64,000 nucleotides of DNA from the NCBI GenBank assembly GCA_003116975.1, contig BGKB01000234.1, positions 1 through 64,000 on the forward strand. The letters run 5' to 3'. A program made the position numbers and the translations under genes. Position 1 is the first letter of the stretch, and the number at the start of each line of letters is the position of its first letter. The notes beneath the pieces were generated by a model. The model worked only from the letters and a program-made list of their open reading frames with translations. It was not told where the DNA came from and made no database searches. Origin of the DNA: Aurantiochytrium sp. KH105. Its lineage: Eukaryota > Sar > Bigyra > Thraustochytrida > Thraustochytriidae. Below, piece after piece: positions 21,111-54,924 of this stretch.

Positions 21111-22530
21111 GTCTCTCAGCTGGCGCGCCGCTCGCTCGTCTCCTTGAGTAGTCGCAGTCGGGCCGCTTCCCTCGCTCTCCGACCTTGCGCGTTTGCTGAC
21201 GATTGGCGCACGCGCCACGGACCCCGTGCTCGCAGTGACCTCCTTCACTCGTCATCTTCACTTCATCGGGTGCACACCTCTCGGTTCTCAGGTGAATGCC
21301 GGACTAGGCCCCAGAATGGGGCCAAATTATGTGCAGCCGCGGAAAGGAGAGAAAAGAGAAAAGAAGGGGAAAGGATCGGGTAGATCTAAGCGACTGATGA
21401 ATCCCCCCTCTGAGCAACTTTTAACTTTGAAACTTTTTACATTTTTCAGGGTTTTTGCTATGATTAATATGGAGGGCCATCAAAATTTCGGAATTTCGTG
21501 CTCAGTAGAACAACATAGCACGAAATTAGGGACACATTCAATGTGTCTTTTCAGTGGACCTCACAGCTTGTCTGCATTTTCTCCCACAGACCTCGNNNNN
21601 NNNNNNNNNNNNNNNNNNNNNNNNNNNNNNNNNNNNNNNNNNNNNNNNNNNNNNNNNNNNNNNNNNNNNNNNNNNNNNNNNNNNNNNNNNNNNNNNNNNN
21701 NNNNNNNNNNNNNNNNNNNNNNNNNNNNNNNNNNNNNNNNNNNNNNNNNNNNNNNNNNNNNNNNNNNNNNNNNNNNNNNNNNNNNNNNNNNNNNNNNNNN
21801 NNNNNNNNNNNNNNNNNNNNNNNNNNNNNNNNNNNNNNNNNNNNNNNNNNNNNNNNNNNNNNNNNNNNNNNNNNNNNNNNNNNNNNNNNNNNNNNNNNNN
21901 NNNNNNNNNNNNNNNNNNNNNNNNNNNNNNNNNNNNNNNNNNNNNNNNNNNNNNNNNNNNNNNNNNNNNNNNNNNNNNNNNNNNNNNNNNNNNNNNNNNN
22001 NNNNNNNNNNNNNNNNNNNNNNNNNNNNNNNNNATAAACGGGTCTTCAACGGATAAATTTTCAAAGTTAACTGCACAAAAATTTACCGCAATGTCACGGC
22101 CTATCTCTTGCACGTGGCGCTGCGACCGCAATTTGATAGGAAGTTCTAGGCGTTAGATAGACTAAACCCATCAAGTGTCCAAATGAAATGGTCTAAACGA
22201 GTGAGACGCCCACCGTTCTCAGAGCTTTCCATCGACATGGGAACGTCAGACTTCGAGCTTCTCCCAAAACTATGGCCGTAGACGGTCGTCCGTGGCGTCA
22301 AAAAGCATAGGTACTGGCTGTCGCGTCGACGTGACGAGGGCTTCTTTTCTCCTTGACAGTACGCGTTCGACCGTCGATAAGCAAGCGAGCGAGCGAGCGA
22401 CCAGTGAGTTGGAGAAGAATCGCGAAAGCCGGATGAAAGACATCGGCAAAAAACAGGGACAACGACTCGAGTCACAGTCATCAACAATTCCGCAACGCTC
22501 AGCCGGACATACAACCATCTCGTGGACGCA
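21111..22530. other. Intergenic region with assembly gap and inverted repeats
   Basis: No gene supported. Just left of the gap is AT-rich sequence with a perfect 11-base inverted repeat (AATTTCGTGCT at 21492-21502, complement at 21517-21527) and an 8-base palindrome (GACACATT/AATGTGTC, 21531-21547). A GAGC run at about 22382-22402 precedes the selenoprotein gene. Confidence 0.55.
21596..22033. other. Assembly gap (438 N)
   Basis: Unsequenced run of N. The flanking inverted repeats suggest a repeat that was hard to assemble. Nothing can be said about its content. Confidence 1.
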
Positions 22531-22914
22531 ATGGTAGAAGAAGCAGCATCGCCATCGCCGCGCGAGGAGGCCCTCGTGCACGTATACTGGCCGTGCAAAT
22601 GATGCGGCGCTGGTGTCACGTACCACGATTTTGCGGACGCGCGCGACGAGCTCGTCGAGGAATCCGCAAGGAAGCTTGCGTGGCCTAACGTTCGTGTGCG
22701 AGGCAAAAAGCAAGAGGCTGGCATGGAAGCAAGTGGGGGCTACGCCTTTGATGTATATGTAATGGAAGCCGACGGCGTCACCAAGGGACTTCGGTTGTGG
22801 TCTCTCGCGACGCAAGGTCGCTTGCCGCAACCGGGCGAGCTCGCTCAAGTCTTTGACGCCTATCTCATGTCCAAGCAAGAGTCAGCCATGACTAGTGCCA
22901 AGGACCGACAGTAG
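22531..22914 (+). CDS. Rdx-fold selenoprotein (SelH/SelW-like), in-frame UGA
   Basis: An ATG in good context (GCAATGG) opens a 127-codon frame ending at TAG, with a single in-frame TGA at 22600-22602 (residue 24). Read as selenocysteine, the motif is C22-K23-U24-C25-G. The rest fits the thioredoxin-like Rdx fold of SelW/SelH/MIEN1. Beta strand A-L-V-H-V-Y-W comes before the motif. T-Y at residues 30-31 is spaced from C25 as in MIEN1 C-x-x-C-G-x-x-x-T-Y. A helix follows, then strand V-R-V-R-G, then A-F-D-V-Y-V (the family F-E-V strand), L-R-L-W-S-L, and a final P-x-P-x-E helix that resembles SelH. A SECIS element with all expected parts lies 20 bases after the stop. The Sec sits one residue before the usual CxxU position, which here is Cys. 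Likely a thiol oxidoreductase. An ordinary premature stop is the alternative, made unlikely by the SECIS. Confidence 0.85.
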
Positions 22915-22933
22915 ATCTCTTTGGAAAAAGTTT

Positions 22934-23009
22934 CGTTTCGTACATGACGCGCGCGATCGTAAACATGAACTGGTGGTTTGTGGGGATTGCGCGTCGACCC
23001 GCCGAGACG
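22934..23009 (+). promoter_or_regulatory. SECIS element, form II
   Basis: 3' UTR stem-loop for selenocysteine insertion, folded by hand. Helix 1 is 22934-22940 with 23003-23009 (7 pairs). A 4x4 internal loop follows. The non-canonical quartet is UGAC (22945-22948, preceded by A) against CGAC (22995-22998). Helix 2 is 22949-22960 with 22983-22994 (11 of 12 paired, counting G-U). The unpaired AAA is at 22961-22963, 13 bases after the quartet UGA. A 7-pair mini-helix 22964-22970/22976-22982 has a 5-base loop. This is the standard eukaryotic SECIS geometry with an extra apical helix (form II). Confidence 0.88.
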
Positions 23010-23160
23010 TGACAAGGGGTAAATTGGTTGAGAAGAGAGGTAAAAGTATAAAGTCTCATCTCTGTATGTATGTTGAAATGTATGTATGTTTGTTAGATTG
23101 ATTGTGATGATTATGTTATCCTTGGATGGTCTCTCCCTGTTTCCCACTGCAAATCGACGC

Positions 23161-25338: not shown

Positions 25339-26823
25339 ATGGACGCGCCTCTGGACTTTGAGGAGATCCCCACGGCGGAGATCGGCCTCGAGCCCACGTA
25401 CAAACCGCAAGTTGCGGACCCTTTTATGCGGCTGGATAGCCTGCGCATGCTCATGGGCAATCCGAGCATTTTCAGAGTCATTTCAGAGGCCGCGGACGGC
25501 AAGGTCGACTCCGTGTACGTACACGACGCAGAGGCCTTGCATCAAGTGCTCGAGGGCGAAGACGGACTCTGGCTCAAAGGTCCGCAGACGATTGAACCCT
25601 TTCGCTCGGTAGTCCCGCTGCACCTGATTGCACTCGATGGCCAAGAGCACACCAAACTTCGCCGCGCTGCACAGCGATCCATGAATGATCAGGTGCAGAG
25701 CCGAGTGACAAGGGTGGCATACAAGCATGCTCTGCGTCTGCGAGCATTCTGGGCGCGTCGCATTCGCGAGTCTGCACGCCCCGACAGATCGCATGAAACA
25801 ATTGCTCTCGATCGGGCCGTGCGCGCAACCACGACTGATATTATCACTGAGCTTGTGTTGGGCGAGCCGTGGGGCTCGTTGACTGGTCTCGATCGCAGAA
25901 AGATCGATCCGCGCGTATCCGCGCTTCGGCAGCTCATGATTGTGCTTCACTGGCGCATCGTCGACATGACAAACCGTGACTGGCGCACGCAGCCGTCCGG
26001 TACAGGCGCGGCCACCGGTCCGCTTAATGTCTTAAAACCCCTCCTTCGAGAGGCGATTGAGCAGGCTCGAGCGGCTGCACCGCTCAAAAGTGAGCAAGAT
26101 CGGGACGAAGCGCCTTGGGTCAAGCTTTTTGTCGATGATCCTGCAGGCCTTTCCGATGAGGAGGTCGAGAACCTTTGCCTCACTTTCCTCACGATGGGTC
26201 ATGAAAACATTTCAACGTCCATCTCGTGGTGTCTCATTCACCTTGCCGAAAACCCCGACGTCCAAGATCGGGTTCGCAGCGAAGTCCTTCAATCTGGGCT
26301 CTTTGCGACGGGCTCTCGCGGTCCAACCAAGACAGATTGGGATGCGATCGAGAAGAGGCAAGACATTCCAGCTTGGACGGCTCTTCAGCGGCTCAAGTCC
26401 CTTGAGGCTGCCTTTTTGGAAAGTGCGCGGCTTATGCCAAGTGTAGCCGTGGTGACACGACGGCCTGCGCGTGACACAGTGCTGCTGGGTCATCGCATTC
26501 CCAAAGACCAAGAGGTCATTTTTAGTATCTACGGCTACCATCGCGACACGTCTCTCTTCGGGGAAAAGGCTGGTTCGTTTCAGTGTCCGCGAGCTCACTT
26601 GCGTGACGATGCGCCACCAAGACCATTTGGAGGCGGCGCACGCATTTGCATTGGACGCCCGCTATCCAGTGTCGAATCAAAGGCAATCGTCGCAGCATTA
26701 TTGGCAGAGTTCTCGCTTTCGAGTACGTCGCCCGAAGACGTGCGTCCGTATAACTTTGTCTCGCTGCGACCGGGCGCCCATCGCATTGTATTTCGCGCGC
26801 TCTCGGCAGCCCCCAGCCTTTGA
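25339..26823 (+). CDS. Cytochrome P450, no membrane anchor
   Basis: Heme-thiolate monooxygenase of 494 residues. The I-helix segment F-L-T-M-G-H-E-N-I-S-T-S (283-294) replaces the usual A/G-G-x-D/E-T. The K-helix E-x-x-R is E361-S-A-R364. The heme loop F-G-G-G-A-R-I-C-I-G has the axial cysteine at C437. A PERF-like F-Q-C-P-R-A-H precedes it. There is no N-terminal transmembrane helix or obvious targeting peptide, unlike most eukaryotic microsomal P450s, so it may be soluble or attached peripherally. The start is a clear ATG shortly after the promoter. Substrate unknown. It is convergent with the choline transporter-like gene and divergent from the ankyrin gene. Confidence 0.88.
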   Translation: MDAPLDFEEIPTAEIGLEPTYKPQVADPFMRLDSLRMLMGNPSIFRVISEAADGKVDSVYVHDAEALHQVLEGEDGLWLKGPQTIEPFRSVVPLHLIALDGQEHTKLRRAAQRSMNDQVQSRVTRVAYKHALRLRAFWARRIRESARPDRSHETIALDRAVRATTTDIITELVLGEPWGSLTGLDRRKIDPRVSALRQLMIVLHWRIVDMTNRDWRTQPSGTGAATGPLNVLKPLLREAIEQARAAAPLKSEQDRDEAPWVKLFVDDPAGLSDEEVENLCLTFLTMGHENISTSISWCLIHLAENPDVQDRVRSEVLQSGLFATGSRGPTKTDWDAIEKRQDIPAWTALQRLKSLEAAFLESARLMPSVAVVTRRPARDTVLLGHRIPKDQEVIFSIYGYHRDTSLFGEKAGSFQCPRAHLRDDAPPRPFGGGARICIGRPLSSVESKAIVAALLAEFSLSSTSPEDVRPYNFVSLRPGAHRIVFRALSAAPSL

Positions 26824-53058: not shown

Positions 53059-54924
53059 GTCGCGAACCGCCGCCGCCGACGACAACAACGCTCCTTCTCC
53101 TTCTCCTTCCCAGCTAGCTCTCTCCGCGCCGACGGACCCACGTCTGCTCCTCCTCCTCCTCCTCCTCCCCGCCGGTCACGCTCTCGCGGCGGACGATGCT
53201 GTCTCTGCTCGCGCGCGTTGCCGGACTGCGCGTCCTCTTCGCCCAGTTCCGCTGCCTTCCTTCACTATTCGCCAGCACCAGCCGCAACTGCAATCTTGCG
53301 CAATGCCTGCGAGCTGGCTGCCGCTGCTGCCGTTCGCGCCCACGTCCAGGTCGCCAAGCTCGTCGCGCTCGTCGTCGCCTTTATCGTTCTTTTCCTGCTG
53401 CCCGAGCGTAATACTATACGCCACCTCCACCATCGCGTACTATTCCTTCAGTGTGGGCGCTGTTCCAATCCGAGACAGTACCACCCGGCCAGTGGTACTG
53501 TCCCAGGCCGTGCGCGCGCGAACGCAATCCTGCGCATCGAAGCGCGCCGCACGCTCTGCGGTCTCGCGATCTTGCGCTCCCCGCCGCCGTCGCCGCCGAG
53601 GAATCAAGCAGTCCCTCGGGAGCGATCGAGCGACTTGCGAGTTGCGAGCGACCGCCTTGCGCGCTCCGAACAGCAGCAGCAGCAGCAGCAGCAGCGCGCA
53701 GGGACACGGTAGGGGAGGAGAGGAGACGCGCGCGACGCAGGCGACTCGGCGCGGGAGAGAGCGCTGGGCAGCCAGGTCACCGCGCCAGCCTCGGCGTGCG
53801 CACTGGCCGGTCACTCGGGCTCGCGGTCAGTCGATGAAGGCAATGCATGCATCGCGCGCGTGAATCCATCCACTTGGGTGGGATGCCGGTGTGCGATGGC
53901 GGACTCTTAATCAGAGGAATCCGCGAGGGAATCCGGCCTCGAGCGGAGGGGTTTGTGCTCTCCAGACGCGGCAGCTAGCGACGGTTCTGTAGTGCGTCGG
54001 GCTGGGACATTGCTGGATGATGCGACGCGCGGGGCCGGGAGCGACGGGTTACTTTCGAGCGCCAGCTCGAGACATGATTGGTAGATTGAGTGTCTCTTGT
54101 TGATGGAGGAAGAGTCCTTTCCCGAAGCTTTTCGACGAGACTGTTGTGCCGAAGAGTCGCTCTGCAGCTCTGTAGAGCGCGTCTCTCTGTATATGAATGA
54201 CCTCGACAAGGTCTCTTGATCACAATAACGCATCGAACAACTCTTGTCATCGCCGCCCGATCAAGAAAAGAAAGTAGAAAAAGAAAAAGCAATGGGAAGA
54301 GAAGTAAAACTAAGAGAGAAAGATGCAAGAGAGCGACACGCAATCCTTACGTGCCACAAGTGATTCTCGCAGAAAGAACACGGTCGGTGATGCTCATCTC
54401 TTCTTTTCAAGACAAATTCGACAAGAAGAGTCACGCATTCTCTCTGTTCTTATTCTTTGCCCAAGGCCAACTTTGAGTGACTGGATCGACCAACTTTGAG
54501 AGAACTGCCAGTCGCTAGACGTTCTCGACTTCAAACTCTTTGCGCTTTCTCCAACATCCAACGCTACCGATGCGTCACCGCATCTGTGGATCAGGCCTAC
54601 GGCCACATGATGCGATTTTCTTTTGAGCCCGAGCCATGAGAACCTGCAGTGACTCTTACTTTCAATCTTCGGCTCATCCGTTGACCCATCTCGACTCGAC
54701 ACGCCTCGTCCGCCTTCGCCGGCCCGCGTCCACGTCGTCCAGCCAGAGCAAGCCATCCTCCCCGGCATTACCGGATATACTGGACGCGTCATAAAGGCGC
54801 CCATCTGTTCGCGCGCTCGTCCAAAATGCCAAAATGTGGGCGCAAGAGCGGTCAAACATGCATCGGCTTCAGCTTCGACGCCGTCTCTCGTGTTTGTGGC
54901 AGGCAGTGATGCAACCCGGCAAAG
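53059..54924. other. Divergent region between FATP and sulfatase genes
   Basis: No gene supported. A TCC/CTC-rich tract lies near 53145-53175. An inverted repeat spans 53475-53501 (ACAGTACCAC, 7-base spacer, GTGGTACTGT). A short CAG array lies near 53671-53697. Open frames on both strands are composition artefacts. Confidence 0.5.
53475..53501. promoter_or_regulatory. 10-base inverted repeat in divergent promoter region
   Basis: Perfect arms ACAGTACCAC and GTGGTACTGT separated by 7 bases. It could be a hairpin or a dimeric factor site; no function shown. Confidence 0.35.

Follow-up and report, generated by a model that had tools for sequence, protein, structure and literature searches.

Thioredoxin-fold selenoproteins have been described with the redox motifs CxxU, UxxU, UxxC and CxU, going by the portions accessible of PMC7539508, PMC9304195, PMC2375036, PMC3316567 and PMC4561486. 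The accessible part of PMC7539508 gives the SELENOW motif as CxxU with UxxU variants, the latter in amphioxus and Ostreococcus lucimarinus, and also lists CxU in SELENOF, UxxC in AhpC_b and three new algal families, while C-x-U-C was not seen in that part. A literature search limited to open-access papers, and thus weak as evidence of absence, returned neither a CxUC selenoprotein nor such a protein from a thraustochytrid or labyrinthulid. Selenocysteine (Sec) placed between two cysteines in a small redox protein therefore appears to be an arrangement without a description in the open-access literature searched, and within that scope we agree with the earlier sequence-only reading of this DNA, which knew of no described family.

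The window, i.e. the complete 64-kb stretch of Aurantiochytrium DNA that was analysed, contains a forward frame running from the ATG at 22531 to the TAG at 22912–22914, which encodes a small protein of 127 residues (about 14 kDa) and is interrupted, as the sequence-only reading had stated, by a single in-frame TGA (22600–22602, codon 24) with coding sequence on both sides, as in eukaryotic selenoprotein genes. Upstream of the ATG there is an in-frame stop, with no further in-frame ATG between the two. With TGA read as U, the translation is MVEEAASPSPREEALVHVYWPCKUCGAGVTYHDF...AKDRQ, which bears out the motif proposed from the letters alone (C22-K23-U24-C25, in the context VYWPC-K-U-C-GAG). No signal peptide or membrane segment was noted in the protein by eye. 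The features of the locus are:

22531–22914, + strand: putative selenoprotein coding sequence, 127 residues and TAG; the second haplotype copy (L002) differs at 5 of 384 bases, 3 of the changes being synonymous.
22573–22590, + strand: predicted beta-1 strand, residues 15–20 (LVHVYW), leading into the redox loop, from two low-confidence AlphaFold2 models.
22594–22605, + strand: TGC-AAA-TGA-TGC, the C22-K23-U24-C25 motif, identical in the second haplotype.
22600–22602, + strand: in-frame TGA, read as selenocysteine 24 on the basis of the frame, the second haplotype and the Sec machinery in the genome.
22729–22848, + strand: Rdx-like C-terminal part, residues 67–106 (ASGGYAFDVYV...LWSLATQGRLPQPGELAQ), with a local match to bacterial Rdx proteins and to Pfam Rdx (residues 65–106, E 0.19).
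22934–23009, + strand: type-II SECIS-like element in the 3′ UTR, with helix I, ATGA/GA core, helix II, AAA apical bulge and mini-stem.

Of the described families, SELENOH (SelH) is similar in being a small Rdx-like protein with a C-K-x-U/C-G redox loop after beta-1, and the protein shows 25% identity (alignment A3) to the SelH-like protein of the same genome; the latter has CKSU and a long lysine-rich N-terminal part, whereas here Sec takes the third motif position with Cys as the next residue, and the protein begins with a short, acidic segment. Bacterial Rdx/SelW-like proteins (PDB 2ojl, 2obk and 2p0g, found with one of the genome's own Rdx proteins) have in common with it a C-terminal GG-x-F-E-V...LWS...GRFPExKE stretch, but the 80 compared (best of at least 542) carry CxxC directly after beta-1, while our protein places one further residue ahead of the motif and is extended by long insertions near residues 50–60 and 79–86 (alignment A3). 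SELENOF (Sep15) shares the C-x-U spacing, but its Cys-rich N-terminal domain is missing here, and its model (Sep15_SelM, PF08806) gave no match to the protein up to E 10. SELENOF is not known to have a Cys right after Sec. The UxxU form of SELENOW, in the accessible part of PMC7539508, provides a precedent for altered Sec/Cys placement in an Rdx motif, but there the first Cys is replaced by Sec with the spacing kept, whereas here Sec lies between two cysteines.

Judged by its gene content, the organism uses selenocysteine. The survey of trans-acting factors covered tRNA-Sec, eEFSec, SepSecS and selenophosphate synthetase (SelD/SPS), and all four were found: tRNA-Sec with a TCA anticodon (tRNA-Sec(UCA)) in two haplotypes, SepSecS (E 7.7e-121), SelD/SPS (E 8.9e-81), and eEFSec (E 6.3e-133 to 5izk) with both eukaryotic C-terminal (third and fourth) domains. 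Four ordinary genes have an in-frame UGA where one is expected, namely SelT-like (CTSU), SelW-like (CGGU), SelH-like (CKSU) and GPx, the names being assigned here by family matches and motif; the three Rdx motifs are consistent with the earlier statement that ordinary Rdx selenoproteins use CxxU. With this machinery and these four genes, UGA is very probably decoded in this genome. The tRNA-Sec and selenophosphate synthetase genes share contigs G000:C170 and G000:C78, about 63 and 66 kb apart. In the SelW-like gene (L008/L009), CGGU ends exon 1 and GYSKYF is in the next exon, with the intron seemingly located at the Sec codon or one base after it.

A hairpin starts 19 bases past the stop codon of the 127-residue frame, with its core 29 bases past it. 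In the minimum-energy fold of 22931–23016, helix I pairs 22934–22940 with 23003–23009 (7 bp), ending exactly at the end coordinate that the sequence-only reading gave for the gene (23009); the ATGA at 22944–22947 and the GA at 22996–22997 are predicted to be unpaired in an internal loop, helix II pairs 22949–22958 with 22985–22994 (10 bp), and the apex has five unpaired bases including AAA (22961–22963), followed by a mini-stem of 8 bp. The ATGA/GA core, two helices, apical AA and 3′ UTR location are those of a SECIS element. Our strict scanner, defined by a TGA...GA core, helix II, an apical AA or CC and helix I, gave two matches on both strands of the window (2 x 64 kb), scoring 15.5 for 22934–23009 and 12.0 for the other, and 35 matches with a top score of 14.0 in a control of 1.28 Mb of random first-order Markov sequence (one strand); the second haplotype's version of the hairpin reaches 14.0 as well, equal to the top random-sequence score. 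With a laxer setting there were five matches in the window (15.5 for 22934–23009, followed by 14.5, 12.5, 12.0 and 11.0), and the hairpin thus ranks highest with both settings. This supports the claim of a SECIS just past the stop, in the form of a SECIS-like element that is the top strict match in the window. The second-best lax match (14.5, at 25685 on the + strand) lies within a forward frame at 25339–26823.

The hairpin alone is not proof, since its folding energy is undistinctive (z -1.38, with 19 of 200 shuffles folding at least as well) and a second one-TGA frame also has a strict match. Among the frames of 90 or more codons in the window, 177 contain a single TGA (overlapping frames counted apart). 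Two of these 177 have a strict match within 1 kb, and the second of the two has a match of 12.0 and lacks a Cys within 3 residues of its TGA. The SECIS-like match of 12.0 at 54434 on the - strand, after a 140-codon one-TGA frame (55291–54869, LRE*TPA), is probably due to chance. SECIS prediction, suggested as a check by the sequence-only reading, was divided: 15.5 from our own scanner, and no match of Rfam SECIS_1 at the hairpin or in the window, nor at E <= 10 in the whole genome. The hairpins of the other UGA genes escape this model as well, so that its negative result at 22934–23009 carries little weight; the SECIS elements of this genome seem to lie beyond the reach of the standard Rfam model. 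In the fetched loci except L001 and L002 (172,472 bases, both strands), the strict scanner found the SelT-like gene only, in both haplotypes, each of which is represented by two locus ids, and missed the SelH-like and SelW-like genes, while the laxer setting, which was the only one used for GPx, found the GPx-like and SelH-like hairpins as well; the fetched 3′ sequence of the SelW-like gene gave no SECIS with either setting. The hairpins of the GPx (L123/L124), SelH-like (L027/L028, lax setting only) and SelT-like (L006/L007) genes and 22934–23009 have a common layout, consisting of [A/G]TGAC, a helix II of 10–12 pairs, an A-rich bulge 13–14 bases on, and GA. A covariance model from the GPx, SelH and SelT SECIS elements was dropped, as MAFFT misaligned the cores.

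The second haplotype copy of the gene (G000:C232, 98% protein identity) retains the frame, the TGA, both cysteines and the hairpin. The two amino acid changes are R47K and K48Q, and the proportion of changed bases is lower in the coding sequence than in the non-coding flanks (24/459; upstream 17/312, downstream 7/147; Fisher p 0.0012), both before the TGA (0/69, p 0.03) and after it (5/312, p 0.006), with the limits of the regions chosen after the differences had been seen. The neighbouring gene on the opposite strand has 29 differences in 1251 bases. Between the haplotypes pS is 0.035 and pN 0.007, with pN/pS alone not significant (p 0.08), and the single difference in the hairpin (1/79, p 0.09, likewise not significant alone) turns a C-G into a U-G pair in helix II. 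A 5-base deletion of one GTTTC repeat copy in the second haplotype leaves helix I with 6 pairs. Since both haplotypes carry the TGA, the comparison indicates constraint on both sides of it, but taken alone cannot tell Sec from stop. A search of viral contigs and genome contigs gave no relatives outside this genome, so that Sec at residue 24 is seen in one species only, and the sole homologue available for Sec/Cys pairing at the UGA, the second haplotype, also has TGA. The frame, the hairpin and the Sec machinery support the earlier proposal of a Sec-coding UGA, and we consider it highly likely from these genomic data that UGA 24 specifies selenocysteine, giving C22-K23-U24-C25.

The product is best explained as a small selenoprotein of thioredoxin-like type that most likely diverged within the Rdx (SelW/SelT/SelH) group or is a sister to it, an explanation to which, as a whole, we assign a probability of roughly 0.7. 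The bacterial comparison set consisted of 80 Rdx loci, the best 80 of at least 542 confirmed with one of the genome's own Rdx proteins as query. The best local score to these 80 was 60 (BLOSUM62), reached by none of 400 shuffles (top shuffle 56), 18 of 400 shuffles equalled or passed the median, the reversed protein scored 45, and 63 of the 80 alignments were at the collinear place; the pairwise test had used two bacterial proteins picked by eye for their similarity, and was redone on all 80 with the maximum as statistic. The resemblance lies in the C-terminal GG-x-F-D-V ... LWS ... QGRLPxPxEL stretch, and a C-terminal strand-strand-helix with a G[RG][FL]P stretch was recognised by sequence match and predicted element order. 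Using hhalign, scores were 23.9 with the profile of the genome's own Rdx proteins (0/150 shuffles as good), 23.8 with a mixed profile (1/150) and 17.7 with the bacterial profile (2/150), the last being below the reversed sequence at 19.6; the controls are close overall, with the reversed protein at 18.4–19.6 versus 17.7–23.9 for the real one, and one shuffle reaching 31.2 with the mixed profile. For residues 1–50, shuffles as good numbered 0/100 (own), 2/100 (mixed) and 27/100 (bacterial), and for residues 50–127 they numbered 36/100, 0/100 and 1/100, respectively. Pairwise local shuffle p-values to the genome's own Rdx proteins were 0.014 (SelW), 0.016 (SelT), 0.028 (SelH), 0.076 (L025) and 0.58 (L004). 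The last two are Rdx proteins without Sec: L025 (G000:C145) has CGGC preceded by a hydrophobic stretch and is probably intron-split, and L004 (G000:C25) is of bacterial type with CCKC, being 54–63% identical to the best 80 bacterial matches of at least 542. The element order in the two AlphaFold2 models fits Rdx, at low confidence (pLDDT 47 and 56, beta-1 strands at 15–18 and 14–19). For the Rdx-aligned model the three best Foldseek matches in PDB were Rdx chains (E 0.25–0.91), a result that is circular and of low confidence. Kinship with Rdx proteins is likely, not certain.

The placement of Sec within the Rdx motif depends on the register chosen. Both MAFFT and hhalign match C22 to the Rdx C and C25 to the Rdx U/C by treating P21 as a one-residue insertion, although Sec is read as Cys by both programs, which biases them towards the Cys columns. 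Where Rdx proteins have CxxU or CxxC directly after beta-1, this protein has C22-x-x-C25, its second x being Sec and an additional residue standing before it. When counted without gaps from the aromatic end of beta-1, U24 is four residues on and falls in the Sec column, as in the genome's own SelW and SelT. On sequence grounds we prefer, by two to one, a Sec shifted one codon upstream with Cys25 in the old Sec place; the earlier assertion that the canonical U position is Cys25 thus holds in the alignments with P21 inserted, and fails in the ungapped register. The same selenoprotein could have Sec24 in the canonical Sec column, with the first Cys moved to give CxU and with C25 as an extra residue. 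Replacing C-x-x-U by P21-C22-K23-U24 needs no gap between beta-1 and Sec, the aromatic W20 aligns with SelW (QY-CGGU), SelT (EF-CTSU) and L025 (QW-CGGC) of the same genome, and CxU is a working redox motif in SELENOF according to the accessible part of PMC9304195; the preference of both alignment programs stands against it, as does the SelH motif C-K-S-U-G, which resembles C-K-U-C-G at C, K, Cys/Sec and G, yet has no aromatic residue ahead, leaving this a possible but rather doubtful alternative. Our tentative proposal, which we hold at slightly less than even odds, is that of a new selenoprotein family defined by a one-codon shift of Sec within the Rdx motif. Cys would then occupy the old Sec position and Sec the one next to it, and the resulting C-x-U-C centre could be bridged as CxU, as vicinal U-C or as CxxC.

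Membership in some other selenoprotein family of thioredoxin-like fold, whether SELENOF/M, glutaredoxin-like or undescribed, would be compatible with the results of the curated Rdx models, which stay below their cut-offs. Pfam Rdx (PF10262) matches residues 65–106 only (12.4 bits, cut-off 22.6), NCBIfam gave no Rdx match for the 127-residue protein, and 22531–22914 is absent from both the 7 matches of PF10262 and the 13 matches of TIGR02174 in the genome; the SelH-like protein of the genome is also below the Pfam Rdx cut-off, at 21.8 bits. The model made without Rdx sequences matches many folds in Foldseek, some of which carry thioredoxin-like titles (peroxiredoxin, ERp29, PDI-like, calsequestrin); none has an E below 0.15, and there is no Rdx chain among the matches listed. 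The collinear resemblance of the C-terminal part to bacterial Rdx proteins argues against another family, and the search of the genome with Sep15_SelM gave three other places, making this alternative unlikely. The Rdx assignment of the sequence-only reading stands on the shuffle and hhalign comparisons, and did not extend to the curated models. Two further sets of matches were judged to be chance, namely 51 chains from phmmer against PDB, nearly all tyrosine kinases (best E 0.045), and matches to PGM_PMM_III and GlmM (E 0.0097–0.047, under cut-offs).

It is very improbable that UGA 24 acts as an ordinary stop, or that splicing removes it, and that the hairpin arose by chance, leaving a truncated or motif-less product or a decaying gene: the ordinary folding energy, the strict match after another one-TGA frame, and 23 in-frame GT-AG pairs that could excise the TGA (donor 22531–22599, acceptor up to 22850, at least 45 nt) are in its favour, but all 23 pairs lose the C22 codon, 21 of them also cut beta-1, none of the 23 has an acceptor in CAG or TAG form, the genome is equipped to decode UGA as Sec, and the 69 bases before the TGA are unchanged between haplotypes; within the bounds enumerated, splicing-out of the TGA is judged unlikely from the sequence.

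For the preferred C-x-U-C centre, the type-II SECIS just past the stop would direct eEFSec and tRNA-Sec(UCA) to insert Sec at UGA codon 24, and the active-site loop after beta-1 would then hold three chalcogens, Cys22, Sec24 and Cys25. Based on motif chemistry, Sec24 may act as the nucleophile on an oxidised substrate, and Cys22, with one residue between them, may resolve the mixed bond in the manner of the SELENOF CxU motif, while Cys25 could serve as a second resolving thiol that moves the bond to a Cys22-Cys25 disulfide, which would then be reduced by glutathione or thioredoxin. The loop would thus have three possible bonds: C22-U24 (CxU), U24-C25 and C22-C25. For the thioredoxin-like domain of SELENOF, a value of -256 mV has been measured (PMC9304195, accessible part). 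A genuine C-x-U-C centre would imply that Sec can relocate within an active site, and would offer a natural protein for comparing the three possible selenylsulfide or disulfide bridges.

The sequence upstream of the selenoprotein gene contains a run of 438 N (21596–22033), and closer to the gene a 34-codon frame on the + strand (22433–22537), with an ATG at 22433 and a TAG at 22535–22537 (read by eye), whose overlap with the start codon reads ATGGTAG. Six bases within this upstream frame are deleted in the other haplotype, and the frame could tune translation.
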